This document shows, piece after piece, positions 322 through 57,379 of a stretch of 64,000 nt of DNA. The notes under the pieces were generated by a model, which was not told where the DNA came from, did no database searches, and saw only the letters and a list, made by a program, of their open reading frames with translations. This DNA is from Lachnospiraceae bacterium. GTDB taxonomy: Bacteria; Bacillota; Clostridia; Lachnospirales; Lachnospiraceae. Each line of letters opens with the position of its first letter. Position 1 is the first letter of the stretch. The stretch spans positions 17,625-81,624 of the forward strand of contig JAAWIS010000005.1 in assembly GCA_022796475.1 (NCBI GenBank), in the 5' to 3' direction. The translations under genes and the position numbers were made by a program.

Positions 322-1326
322 ATGGTAAGAGTAATTGACATGCACTGTGATACGATTTCGGAGCTTTATTACAACCACAGGGATGGTGGAAATCTTTCGG
401 TACTGGACAGCCCGCTCCATGTAAATTTAGAAAAAATGGAAAAAGGCGGATACGGTCTTCAAAATTTTGCACTGTTTACCCACTTGGAGCGGGCAGGAAA
501 CCGCCCCTTTGAGTATTGTATGAGATTAGCAGATACCTTTTTTACTGAGATGAAGGCTCATACCGATAAAATCGGGATTGTAAGGAATTATGGAGATATT
601 GAAGAAAACTGGAGATTGCATAAGATGTCTGCCTTGCTTACGGTAGAAGAAGGGGGCGTGTGTCAGGGGGAACTGGCATTTCTGCGGATTCTTTATGAGC
701 TTGGAGTCCGTATGATGACGCTCACCTGGAATTTTCAAAATGAGCTTGGCTGGCCGAACCAAAAAGAGCAGACAGAATCAGGAAATACATATTATGTGCC
801 CGATACCCGGCACGGTTTAACGGAAAAAGGGGTTGCCTTTCTGGAGGAAATGGAAGGCCTTGGGATGATAATCGATATTTCTCATTTAAATGACAAAGGG
901 ATATGGGATGTGTTTGAACATACGAAAAAGCCCTTTGTAGCCAGCCATTCCAACTGCCGGCAGTTAACGCCTCATCCAAGGAATTTAACGGACGAAATGA
1001 TCCGGAAGCTGGCAGAAAGAGGAGGCGTGGCTGGTATTAACTTCTGCTCTGCATTTTTGAAAGAAGAAGCGCCAGATACCCAGGAAGTGATGTCCGCCAT
1101 CCAGGATATGATCCGGCATATGAAGCATATGAAGCAGATTGGCGGTATTGAAGTAATTGGTCTTGGAACAGATTTTGACGGAATTGAAAACCCGGTTGAA
1201 ATTTCTGACGCATCAAAGATGCAGCAGTTAGTTTGGGCTATGGAACAGGCTGGCTTTACTTCCGGGGAGATCGACGCTGTATTTCATGGTAATGTTCTGC
1301 GGGTTTATAAGGAAATTCTGTCTTAG
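322..1326 (+). CDS. Membrane dipeptidase (renal dipeptidase, peptidase M19 family)
   Basis: IDMHCDTI start, EGG, DISHL, ASHSN, GLGTDFDGI motifs of M19. Confidence 0.92.
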   Translation: MVRVIDMHCDTISELYYNHRDGGNLSVLDSPLHVNLEKMEKGGYGLQNFALFTHLERAGNRPFEYCMRLADTFFTEMKAHTDKIGIVRNYGDIEENWRLHKMSALLTVEEGGVCQGELAFLRILYELGVRMMTLTWNFQNELGWPNQKEQTESGNTYYVPDTRHGLTEKGVAFLEEMEGLGMIIDISHLNDKGIWDVFEHTKKPFVASHSNCRQLTPHPRNLTDEMIRKLAERGGVAGINFCSAFLKEEAPDTQEVMSAIQDMIRHMKHMKQIGGIEVIGLGTDFDGIENPVEISDASKMQQLVWAMEQAGFTSGEIDAVFHGNVLRVYKEILS

Positions 1327-1553
1327 AGTACTGACACATTTACTTTCAGCTAAACGATGCAGAATGAATGTTCAGCCTGCAAAACAGAGGGCGGCGATGG
1401 GGTTACATTTCGCCATCTGCGCGCTCTGGCTGGATCATAACCATTATTTATGAGCGTTTTTGCAGGATTTCTATCGGATAAAGAAAGAAAAATCAGGCCA
1501 TATTAATGCTGTAGCCGGACTTTCCCTGCTTTTATGCAAATGGCAGGCTGAAT

Positions 1554-38150: not shown

Positions 38151-38536
38151 AAGATTGCACTGCGCTTTAGCGCGTGCCTGGAAATTCAGGCAAGTCATTT
38201 GCCTAAATACACTAGCCGCAATTAAGCGAAAAAGATAGTGAAAAGCATCCTTGAATATGCTATAATAAATACAGTCGTATGAAGGTTCTTTTCCACACGG
38301 AAAGGAGCAGAACAATGTGGCAGAAACATTGGGAAATATGGGTTCTGCCCGCATATAAGAATCTCAAAAAAGATAATCGAATCTGCTAACAGCAGTGGAT
38401 TAGCAGTGCAAGAGAAAAAGAAGGCTGGAAACAGCAGCAAATATATTGTTCTGGCAGGCAACAATCCATCAGCGCAGTTGCTGCTTGCGGAATGATGCAC
38501 CAGATAGAACGAAAAGAATATGAAGCAGGGGGAAAT

Positions 38537-47292: not shown

Positions 47293-47985
47293 ATGAAAAA
47301 TGGAAGGATTTACGGCGTCAGTGTAGGTCCGGGAAACCCGGAGCTGATGACGCTTTTGGCAGTCCGTGTAATCAGAGAAGCAGATATCATTGCCCTGCCT
47401 CATGAAGAAAAGGAAAAATGTGTGGCATATCAAATTGCCAGACAGGTTTTGCCGGAAATTGAGCAGAAAGCCAGCCTTCTGATTCCGATGCCGATGACCA
47501 AGGATCCTGTCCAGTTGGAAAAAAGCCACAGAAAAGGAGCGGACAGGATTCTGGAATGCTTAAAGCAGGGGAAAAATGTGGCGCTGTTAACCTTAGGAGA
47601 TGTTTCTGTGTATTCCACATGCTGGTATCTGTATCGATTAGTAAAAGAAGCGGGAGCACAGGGAGAATTAGTAAGCGGCGTACCTTCTTTCTGCGCGGCA
47701 GCGGCCAGGCTGGATCGGGCACTGGTAAGCGGAAGCAAAGAGCTTCATATTCTGCCTGCATCTTACCAGATTGGGGAGGGATTAGAGCTTTCAGGGGTTA
47801 AGGTGCTGATGAAGCCTGGAAAGCAGATCCCTTCTTTAAAGCAGGAATTATTAAACAAGGGAGTTTCCGTATGTGGCATACAGCGATGCGGGATGGATGG
47901 GGAGCAGATTTACCGGTCTGCAGAGGAAATTCGGGAAGATGCAGGCTACTATTCCCTTTTTATTGTGGATGAGAAAGAACACTAG
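47293..47985 (+). CDS. cbiL: Precorrin-2/cobalt-factor II C20-methyltransferase
   Basis: GVSVGPGNPELMTLLAVRVI, LTLGDVSVYSTCWYL, GVPSFCAAAA. Confidence 0.92.
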   Translation: MKNGRIYGVSVGPGNPELMTLLAVRVIREADIIALPHEEKEKCVAYQIARQVLPEIEQKASLLIPMPMTKDPVQLEKSHRKGADRILECLKQGKNVALLTLGDVSVYSTCWYLYRLVKEAGAQGELVSGVPSFCAAAARLDRALVSGSKELHILPASYQIGEGLELSGVKVLMKPGKQIPSLKQELLNKGVSVCGIQRCGMDGEQIYRSAEEIREDAGYYSLFIVDEKEH

Positions 47986-48143
47986 TGTGCTGTCTGTATT
48001 CTATCTGGTGAAACTCCGAAGAATAAATTTTCATCAGCAAGGCGGAGAAGGGAGGCGATGCGGTGGCATCGTTGACTGCCGACAACGCAGTCTGATGGAA
48101 ATTCAGGCAAGAAGGTTTAGCTGAATATAATGCAGACAGTACA
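47986..48143. repeat. Structured palindromic intergenic element between cbiL and cbiF
   Basis: Outer arms TGTGCTGTCTGTATTCT / ATAATGCAGACAGTACA; inner CGATGCggtgGCATCG and GACTGCcgacaacGCAGTC; contains GGAAATTCAGGCAAG. Confidence 0.7.
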
Positions 48144-48164
48144 TTAAGTTGGAAAGGAACAGAT

Positions 48165-49723: not shown

Positions 49724-49764
49724 GAAAGTGAAAAGTTTCAGCTTTTTAGAAAATGGAGGAAAAC

Positions 49765-51300
49765 GTGAAGTCAGGAAAACTGGGAATTTTCGGTGGGACA
49801 TCAGAGGGCAGGCTATTGGCAGAGCTTTGCAGGGAACAGGAAATACCGGCTGTAATTTCTGTGGCAACCTTTTATGGGGAACAGTTATTGGAAGAAGGAG
49901 ATAATTTGTTGGTCTGTACAGGCAGAATGAATAGGGAAGAGATGTGTCAATGGATGGAAGCAAATGGGATTGCAGAAGTGATTGATGCCACCCATCCTTT
50001 TGCAAAGCTGGCGTCTGAGAATATCAGGCAGGCATGCAGGCAGCAGGGAATTTCGTATCATCGTCTTGTGCGGGATAAGGGGCGAAAAACCATTGACCGA
50101 AAAAACAGGAGCATAAAAGAGTCTGATATTTCCTGGGTTCAGTCAGTGGAAGAGGCGGCCTTATTTTTAAATGAGGAATTGTCACGATATCCAAAACGAA
50201 AGGCACTTCTTACGACGGGAAGTAAGGAGCTTTTTTATTTTGCAGGAATTGCCAAGGGGGAGGGAAGGATCTATGCCCGGGTTCTGCCTTCCGCAGACGG
50301 AATTTTGGCATGTCAGAATGCGGGGATTTCAGGGAAACAGATTTTGGCGCTTCAGGGCCCATTCTCCTATGAACTAAACCGTGCAATCCTTCAGGATACA
50401 GGTGTTTCCTATTTGGTAACCAAAGAATCGGGGGAAGCGGGAGGATTTTCAGAAAAGCTTAAGGCGGCTGTGAGCTTAGGCTGTCATGTGATTGCAGTGG
50501 GAAGGCCAGAGGAGGAGCAGGGGGAAAGTTTTCAGGAAATCAGGAATTGGCTGCTGGGAATCCGCCGGGATTGTTTGATGCAAGATGAGAATCTGGTTAA
50601 AAAAAATCTGGCCATCCGGAAGGTTTCCTTAGTGGGAATTGGGATGGGAAATCCAGAACAGATGACATTAGAAGGGATTCAGGCAGTTCTTAAAAGTGAC
50701 GGGATACTTGGGGCTTCCCGGATGGTGGAAAGCGGAAAAAATATATGGAAATGGCTAAAACAGACAGGATGGATAACGGCAGGGGAATGGGATAAAGATA
50801 TCTGTACTGCTTATGCCCCGGAAAAAATGCTTTCCTGGCTGGACTGCCATCCTGATATCAAAAACCCTGTGATCTTATATTCTGGTGATGTAGGGTTCTA
50901 CAGCGGAGCAGCGGCCCTCCTGCAAAAAATCCAAAAAGAAAACAGGCCTTATACCTGCAGATTGATACCAGGGATATCTTCTTTAGCTTATTTTGGAGGG
51001 CGGTTAGGGAGAAGCTGGGAGCATGTTAAGACAGTTAGCCTTCATGGAAGGAAGCTGGAGGATACAGAGGAAGAAGAATGGAGCTTCCAGGATAAAAGAG
51101 AGCGTTTTCTCCTTTTGGATGGAACCAAAAAGCTTTATGAAGTGTGCAGAATACTGAAGGAACAGGGCCAGGCTCAGGCCAGGATTTGGATTGGGGAACG
51201 GCTGTCATACGAAGATGAGAGGATTTTTTGCGGAACGCCGGATCAGCTTTTAAAGGCAGAGATTGATTCTCTTTCTGTAGCATGGATTATTCCAAATTAG
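49765..51300 (+). CDS. Fused precorrin-6A reductase (CbiJ/CobK) and precorrin-6B/7 methyltransferase subunit CbiE; GTG start (49753 ATG alternative)
   Basis: N-terminal LGIFGGTSEGRLLAEL...VIDATHPFA (CbiJ); C-terminal VSLVGIGMGNPEQMTLEGIQAV...YSGDVGFYSGAAAL...IPGISSLAYF (CbiE). Confidence 0.9.
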   Translation: MKSGKLGIFGGTSEGRLLAELCREQEIPAVISVATFYGEQLLEEGDNLLVCTGRMNREEMCQWMEANGIAEVIDATHPFAKLASENIRQACRQQGISYHRLVRDKGRKTIDRKNRSIKESDISWVQSVEEAALFLNEELSRYPKRKALLTTGSKELFYFAGIAKGEGRIYARVLPSADGILACQNAGISGKQILALQGPFSYELNRAILQDTGVSYLVTKESGEAGGFSEKLKAAVSLGCHVIAVGRPEEEQGESFQEIRNWLLGIRRDCLMQDENLVKKNLAIRKVSLVGIGMGNPEQMTLEGIQAVLKSDGILGASRMVESGKNIWKWLKQTGWITAGEWDKDICTAYAPEKMLSWLDCHPDIKNPVILYSGDVGFYSGAAALLQKIQKENRPYTCRLIPGISSLAYFGGRLGRSWEHVKTVSLHGRKLEDTEEEEWSFQDKRERFLLLDGTKKLYEVCRILKEQGQAQARIWIGERLSYEDERIFCGTPDQLLKAEIDSLSVAWIIPN

Positions 51301-51384
51301 TGTGCTGACACATTTATTTTCTGCCAAATGATGCAGACGGAAATTCAGGCAAGCCGTTTGGCAAAATGTAAACGTGTCAGCACA
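51301..51384. repeat. Palindromic repeat between convergent genes
   Basis: 29-nt arms TGTGCTGACACATTTATTTTCTGCCAAAT / GTTTGGCAAAATGTAAACGTGTCAGCACA, 24/29 complementary by eye; core GGAAATTCAGGCAAG. Confidence 0.8.
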
Positions 51385-51401
51385 TTCGTATCGCTTTGCT
51401 G

Positions 51402-52274
51402 TTAGTAGCAGATTACTTCTGCTCCCGTTTCCGTTACCAGAACTTGTATTTCCCACTGGGCAGAGGGCATGTGGTCTTCCGTATACACAGTCCAATTATT
51501 TTCATCATCTACATAAATTCCTTCTTTTCCCATATTAATCATAGGTTCGATGGTAAAAACCATCCCCGGAACCATAAGCATTTCAGTGCCCCGTTTTGCA
51601 ACATATCCTACCCATGGTTCCTCATGGAAGGCCAGGCCGATTCCGTGTCCTCCGATTTCGCGTACCACAGAATAGCCATTTTTGGAGGCATGGTCATGAA
51701 CAGCCTGGGCCATATCGCCTAAGAATCCCCATGGCTTTACCTGCGCCAGTCCTAATTCTACACATTCTTTTGTTACTGTTACAAGACGCTGCTTTTCTTC
51801 GGATACGGTTCCAATACAAAACATACGGGAAGAATCAGAAAAATATCCCTGATAGTTTGTAGAAACATCTACATTAATGATATCTCCATCTTTTAATATT
51901 ACACCAGAAGAAGGGATGCCATGGCATACCTGCTCATTAACAGAAGTACAGACATTTTTGGGATAGCCTTCAAAATTCAGCGGGGCAGGAATGCCTCCGG
52001 CACGGATTGTCAGATCCGATACCCATTGATCAATCTGTTCTGTAGTAATGCCTTCTTTGATGTGTGCGGCAATATAGTCCAGCACAGCAATGTTGATTTT
52101 GGCGCTTTCCCGGATTTTCTCGATTTGCTTTGGAGTTTTGATCATGCTGTGACAAGGAACAATGCAGCCCCTTCTGCGGTAGGATTCGATTTTTTCATCA
52201 AATGCCAGATGACATTTTTTGTATTTCAGCCCGCTGCTGCACCAGCAGAGATCATTTCTTCCAATTAATTCCAT
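51402..52274 (-). CDS. map: Type I methionyl aminopeptidase with N-terminal SEC-C zinc motif
   Basis: GRNDLCWCSSGLKYKKCH (SEC-C) then MetAP motifs GYPKNVCTSVNEQVCHGIP, GHGIGLAFHEEPWV. Confidence 0.95.
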   Translation of the reverse strand: MELIGRNDLCWCSSGLKYKKCHLAFDEKIESYRRRGCIVPCHSMIKTPKQIEKIRESAKINIAVLDYIAAHIKEGITTEQIDQWVSDLTIRAGGIPAPLNFEGYPKNVCTSVNEQVCHGIPSSGVILKDGDIINVDVSTNYQGYFSDSSRMFCIGTVSEEKQRLVTVTKECVELGLAQVKPWGFLGDMAQAVHDHASKNGYSVVREIGGHGIGLAFHEEPWVGYVAKRGTEMLMVPGMVFTIEPMINMGKEGIYVDDENNWTVYTEDHMPSAQWEIQVLVTETGAEVICY

Positions 52275-56196: not shown

Positions 56197-57330
56197 ATGA
56201 CATTATTAGAAAAGACAACGAAGAACATCGACGGACTTGACATAAAGGCCATGGAACAGGCCAGAAAACGTTGGAATAGTGTTGCAAAGCCTTTAAAAAG
56301 TTTGGGGCTTTTGGAAGATGCCATAATACAGATTGCAGGCATTACAGGAAACAGTCAGATTGAAATTAGTAAAAAGGCTGTGGTTATTTTTTGCGGGGAT
56401 AACGGAATTGTAGAGGAGGGAGTTACCCAGACAGGCCAGGAAGTAACGGCTGTGGTGACAGAGAATTTTTCAAAAGGAGAAAGCTGCGTCTGCATTATGG
56501 CGGAGCAGGCCGGTGCATGGGTGTTCCCGGTGGATATCGGAGTAAAAAGAAAACTTTTGGGCTATGGAAACTTTGCAGAAGGGAACGATCGGTTAGTCTG
56601 CAGTGTAGATTCAAAAGGAGCTTCCAAAATCCGGTATCCCATTTGGAATCAAAAGCTGATGGCCGGAACCAGGAATTTTATAAAGGAACCGGCGATGGAC
56701 AGGGAAATTGCAGTTAAGGCAATTGAAACCGGAATCCGGCTGGTAGGTTTATTAAAAGAAAGAGGATATCAGATTATAGCAACCGGTGAAATGGGGATTG
56801 GCAATACCACCACCAGCAGCGCTGTAAGCGCCGCATTTTTAAGAGTACCTCCGGAAATGGTAACGGGAAGAGGCGCCGGCTTGAGTACGGAAGGGCTGAA
56901 GCGGAAGAGGAAAGTGATCTATCAGGGGCTTTCTTTGTGGAAACCGAATCCGGAAGACGGAATCGACGTGATAGCGAAAGTAGGCGGCCTGGATTTGGCT
57001 GGTCTTACCGGAATTTATCTGGGAGGAGCTTGTTACCGGGTTCCGGTGATTGTAGATGGATTAATTTCATCAGTAGCAGCCTTAGCTGCCGTTTCTCTGT
57101 GTCCCATGTCAAAGTACTATATGATAGCCTCCCATGCTTCGGCAGAGATCGCCGGGGAACTGGTGTTAAATGCTCTTGGCTTAAAGCCGATTATTTATGG
57201 AAATCTGTGCCTGGGAGAAGGAACCGGGGCAGTGGCGCTGCTTCCTGTGCTGGATATGGCGGCTGCTGTCTATCATAAGATGAGTACATTTTCTCAGATG
57301 CAAATTAAAGAGTATCAGCCCCTGGATTAG
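56197..57330 (+). CDS. cobT: Nicotinate-nucleotide--dimethylbenzimidazole phosphoribosyltransferase
   Basis: RWNSVAKPLKSLGLLED, FCGDNGIVEEGVTQTGQEVT, GEMGIGNTTTSSAV, MIASHASAE. Confidence 0.96.
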   Translation: MTLLEKTTKNIDGLDIKAMEQARKRWNSVAKPLKSLGLLEDAIIQIAGITGNSQIEISKKAVVIFCGDNGIVEEGVTQTGQEVTAVVTENFSKGESCVCIMAEQAGAWVFPVDIGVKRKLLGYGNFAEGNDRLVCSVDSKGASKIRYPIWNQKLMAGTRNFIKEPAMDREIAVKAIETGIRLVGLLKERGYQIIATGEMGIGNTTTSSAVSAAFLRVPPEMVTGRGAGLSTEGLKRKRKVIYQGLSLWKPNPEDGIDVIAKVGGLDLAGLTGIYLGGACYRVPVIVDGLISSVAALAAVSLCPMSKYYMIASHASAEIAGELVLNALGLKPIIYGNLCLGEGTGAVALLPVLDMAAAVYHKMSTFSQMQIKEYQPLD

Positions 57331-57379
57331 TATACTGTCTGCAGATGTGAAAGAAACAAGAGAAAGGATGACAGTAACG

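Follow-up and report, generated by a model that had tools for sequence, protein, structure and literature searches.

Four long open reading frames in the 64,000-nucleotide window (the whole stretch of DNA analysed here) end on a TAG with which a repeat also begins, and this raises the question of how a dispersed element comes to start again and again on stop codons, and what it does to the genes that it meets there. The terminal motif TAGWRTRCTGWC has four exact matches in the window, all on the plus strand (1324, 47983, 51298 and 57328), against a chance expectation of 0.07 (shuffle mean), and none of the shuffles reaches four. An earlier note on this DNA had placed these four loci on the TAG of a gene, and each is in fact the in-frame stop of a long ORF:

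322..1326, plus strand: probable dipeptidase; TAG formed at the element junction; orthologues end -1 to 0 codons from it
47293..47985, plus strand: cbiL/cobI (TIGR01467); TAG formed at the element junction; orthologues end at -4 to -2 codons, one at +10
49753..51300, plus strand: cbiJ/cbiE fusion, precorrin-6A reductase with a CbiE domain (TIGR00715, TIGR02467); TAG formed at the element junction; orthologues end at +2 to +10 codons
56197..57330, plus strand: cobT (TIGR03160); TAG formed at the element junction; orthologues end at 0 to +1 codons

Family models provide the assignments of cbiL/cobI, cbiJ with cbiE, and cobT. The ORF at 322-1326 has no NCBIfam match, and we take its product to resemble a membrane dipeptidase. 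The repeats in the window, none of which is given a strand, are:

1324..1420 (right limit approximate): family A copy reduced to its left part, without a right end
38180..38215: family A, remnant of the right end, GGAAATTCAGGCAAGTCATTTGCCTAAATACACTAG, ending in CACTAG
47983..48146: ~164-bp copy between cbiL and cbiF
51298..51387: hairpin derived from MITE family A, with the palindrome at 51298-51384
57328..57345: left-hand terminal repeat, TAGTATACTGTCTG, at the cobT stop, the remainder deleted or decayed

The copies at 47983 and 51298 had both been described as full palindromes, a description that nearly fits the second but fails for the first. In 51298-51384, 28-bp arms are 86% complementary and the RNA fold reaches -39.8 kcal/mol (z = -5.0), whereas the 47983 copy is a ~164-bp element that is complementary only at its short ends (about 14 bp). 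The latter runs from a left end TAGTGTGCTGTCTG to a right end GCAGACAGTACAT followed by TA and then A, and this right flank, TAAG, suggests either that the ancestral stop was TAA or that a CTAG changed later. At 51298, TA (51298-51299) and the G of the element make up the TAG stop of cbiJ/cbiE, and the right end is GTCAGCACA followed by TTC, the target-site duplication having decayed. Both halves of this 87-bp copy match other genomic copies at 85-92%, and it is an internal-deletion derivative of family A, as are also present elsewhere in the genome. The 1324 copy shares 83% identity over 46 bp with 51297-51342, and GACAGTAA at about 57370 may be what is left of the right end of the 57328 copy. 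Exact matches to the core GGAAATTCAGGCAAG lie at 38180, 48097 and 51339; the occurrence that had been reported near 38176 is thus present, with its exact position at 38180, and no left end was found for the remnant at 38180-38215.

The further genomic copies whose absence would have counted against the family are abundant. A search of the genome with the 87-bp copy returned 59 matches, exact matches of the terminal motif number 97 against 14 for the reversed control, and CTAGTGTKCTGWC occurs 59 times against none in the reversed control and 0-7 times in relatives. Complete elements fall into two families, A (165 bp) and B (168 bp), which start with CTAGTGTTCTGWC, finish with its near complement and differ in their interiors; the ends common to the superfamily read (TA)GTGTNCTGWC...GWCAGNACAC(TA). 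The elements are short, non-coding and present in many copies, they have terminal inverted repeats, and TA flanks them on both sides. On these sequence features, the repeats form a superfamily of MITEs in a single genome of Lachnospiraceae type. A Rfam scan of five carrier loci gave no match, which sets aside a known RNA family for these loci. The ends of family B have a mean identity of 96-98%, and this family has probably spread recently; many of its nearly identical copies lie ~85-100 bases from contig ends and so explain assembly breaks. In the genome collection, from which records near this genome were possibly left out, family B had no exact match.

The outer tetranucleotides of one locus, L064, are unlike (TTAG and CTAA), so that TA alone is the duplicated unit and CTAG as a 4-bp duplication is ruled out. 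C precedes TA at 65 of the 97 ends in this genome, with about a third lacking it, and three other copies, in the window, read TTAG; ends without C could reflect either a looser target or drifted junctions. An empty site is available in another species of the genus (L167), where the cbiL junction is short, free of the element and closed by TAA, at the place where the present genome has its 164-bp insertion.

What could have moved these elements is suggested by relatives, which carry a complete IS with the ends of the MITE and a coding start MARPKKY. Its ORF2 matches NF033545 at 157.9 bits (cut-off 100; 3.7e-46), and the element is assigned by this model to the IS630 family; ORF1 alone scores 43.6 bits, under the cut-off. 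The two ORFs overlap at an A-rich run, TTTAAAAAAAACAAAC, which suggests programmed frameshifting, and are probably joined in this way. Many relatives turned up in the named genomes scanned, mainly in Lachnospiraceae; 12 distinct copies (1.26-1.28 kb) are complete and have ends that can be recognised, and their outer bases are C in 24 of 24 cases, which identifies CTAG, with TA duplicated, as the target of the related IS. In the MITE-bearing genome itself the IS is visible only as ends at contig breaks: two end types occur (L075; L067 and L054), both stopping at such breaks, and that of L075 leads into a coding start MARPKKYIIS. A search for ORF2 in this genome found none, the assembly breaking inside the IS. 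The IS630-family element (~1.28 kb) is the likely source of the transposase for the MITEs.

Taken together, it is highly probable that the repeats are non-autonomous MITEs moved by an IS630-family transposase, inserted at CTAG and able to rebuild a stop with their own G. The family, its ends, the TA duplication, the CTAG target of the related IS, the phasing and preserved C-termini described below and the adjoining elements are all seen in the data. Mobilisation in trans, cut-and-paste chemistry and selection as a filter are inferred. An IS630-family (Tc1/mariner-like DDE) transposase would recognise the common ends GTGTNCTGWC and move the MITEs in trans; insertion at CTAG would duplicate the central TA, giving junctions CTA/G... 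and ...C/TAG and rebuilding CTAG on both sides. If the target TA were to open a stop codon, the G of the element would yield TAG and leave the end of translation unchanged. Insertions within genes would be lost to selection, while those at stops and between genes would persist, and the rebuilt CTAG sites could take further elements and give rise to arrays. Each insertion would turn one CTAG into two, with which the nine ends that abut another inverted end agree. Another repeat, starting CTAGAGCGTGWCTGAAAATTGCTTTCCG, abuts MITEs at a common CTAG at five loci and may be a separate MITE family with the same target.

The phasing of the stops argues against the alternative that long ORFs run by chance into a common terminal motif. 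The motif does start with TAG, and a random insertion within a gene would frame that TAG one time in three. However, credible genes running into an exact-motif end are distributed among the three TAG frames (f0:f1:f2) as 15:2:0, far above one third in frame (P = 4.5e-6), credibility being partly our judgement, from coding score and orthologues; an f1 ORF at one locus and short ORFs at three others were set aside as not being credible junctions. Two degenerate ends, at rsfS and proS, are also in frame, bringing the total in frame to 17. Orthologues of all 17 genes were taken from other genomes of the genus, and in 16 of them at least some orthologues end within about five codons of that point, in many genes exactly, which is not expected of random truncation; orthologues running well past the element in most of the 17 genes were looked for and not seen. 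Chance coincidence is accordingly very improbable.

Orthologues stop at TAA, TGA or TAG, and those of rsfS and proS all end at the same codon, TAA. The spread is wider for modC (-3 to +5) and cbiL (-4 to +10), which we read as ordinary C-terminal variation. The earlier proposal of a dispersed, MITE-like element found repeatedly at gene 3' ends is thus borne out by the copies and the phasing, and its further suggestion that the element supplies those ends holds for one base, the G of TAG, but not for a new C-terminus. New C-termini or frequent truncation do not describe these genes, given the like ends of orthologues in 16 of 17. The LysR gene alone is truncated, being 11-22 codons shorter than its orthologues; in this LysR-type regulator, at a contig end (L054), the IS end supplies the stop. 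Two insertions lie in the +1 frame (L069, 1487; L080, 1505), one in a Crp-like regulator with a short element-derived tail and one in an acyltransferase-like ORF that is apparently broken.

The same note had left the class of the element between REP and MITE. REP/BIME palindromes, whose spread depends on a RAYT (IS200/IS605-like) enzyme, would likewise be dispersed, extragenic and palindromic, but the present repeats have true terminal inverted repeats, a TA duplication, a full length of 165-168 bp and a partner of the IS630 family that shares their ends; hairpins that lack terminal inverted repeats and target-site duplication are a poor description of them, and we give the REP reading hardly any weight. 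The MITE half of the proposal, with an IS630-type partner, is the part that stands.

A further question is whether stop codons are a real insertion hotspot, or are positively kept, beyond what CTAG supply and selection provide, for example if a hairpin right after the stop protected or ended the transcript with the native terminator intact. Null statistics were drawn from the window and 400 kb of other stretches of this genome, and in these 464 kb CTAG occurs 92 times against 398 expected from a Markov estimate, about fourfold under-represented. The 272 TA sites at stops took 14 insertions and the 1780 lying 3-152 nt downstream took 17 (P = 2e-5, odds ratio 5.4), and recent family B alone gives 5 at stops and 3 downstream (P = 0.002). 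Weighting for flank preference on both sides shrinks the excess, with 14 of 31 insertions at stops against 0.18 expected (P = 4e-4), and a strict CTAG baseline leaves only 2 native sites at stops and 6 downstream, so few that its P = 0.04 is untrustworthy. Moreover, the search motif itself contains TAG, which selection keeps at stops; the full IS copies of relatives show no excess there (one each in f0, f1 and f2, of 24 sides), and few of the relatives' MITEs lie at stops (2-4 of about 32). Insertions are almost absent from gene bodies, where about 80% of TA sites lie. CTAG targeting and selection account for most of the clustering and are taken as sufficient, and an added hotspot or positive retention seems unlikely. 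It is equally doubtful that the MITE ends were shaped for stops as a preferred safe harbour exceeding CTAG supply and purifying selection.

The closest known cases to these CTAG-targeting MITEs are RUP with IS630-Spn1 and TnRErm46. RUP of Streptococcus pneumoniae, for which mobilisation by IS630-Spn1 has been proposed, is similar in size, numbers about 110 copies, has ends matching an IS630-family element, inserts at TA, contains stops in all frames, clusters, and is enriched between convergent genes; compared by its description, the 107-bp RUP differs in that the portions of these sources used here yielded neither stop regeneration nor a CTAG target (PMC2229807, PMC3049150). IS630 itself prefers TA within 5'-CTAG-3' (Tenzen & Ohtsubo 1991, as cited in PMC6811581) and so resembles the partner in target as well as in family by NF033545, although it is a full-length IS of another lineage and in the partner two ORFs are joined at a run of A. 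Correia/NEMIS elements share a length of 104-157 bp, TA insertion and hairpin transcripts, but belong to Neisseria only, where no transposase partner has been identified for them (PMC2649163, PMC2229807). The effect on stops has one clear precedent in the literature, TnRErm46/ISRe46 of Rhodococcus equi, in which the TAG of the CTAG target supplies the stop of some targets without interrupting their function; unlike the present MITEs, this large transposon carries resistance, has a different IS and is described with a duplicated repeat NCTAGN (PMC6794481). As far as the searched libraries show, the elements described here are a new, previously unnamed set.

They offer a quantified case in which the end of a mobile element renders one class of gene-end insertions harmless by rebuilding both stop and target, and they allow a natural test of the idea that the ends of transposons evolve toward host-neutral insertion. 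They also account for arrays of adjoining elements and for contig breaks in these genomes, and pose a risk for annotation, in that element DNA can be mistaken for a gene or operon 3' end. At the 51298 copy, cbiJ/cbiE is convergent with a methionyl aminopeptidase gene on the minus strand (end 51402), and the hairpin occupies most of the gap between them (51298-51402), where it might terminate transcription in both directions or serve as a 3' stabiliser.
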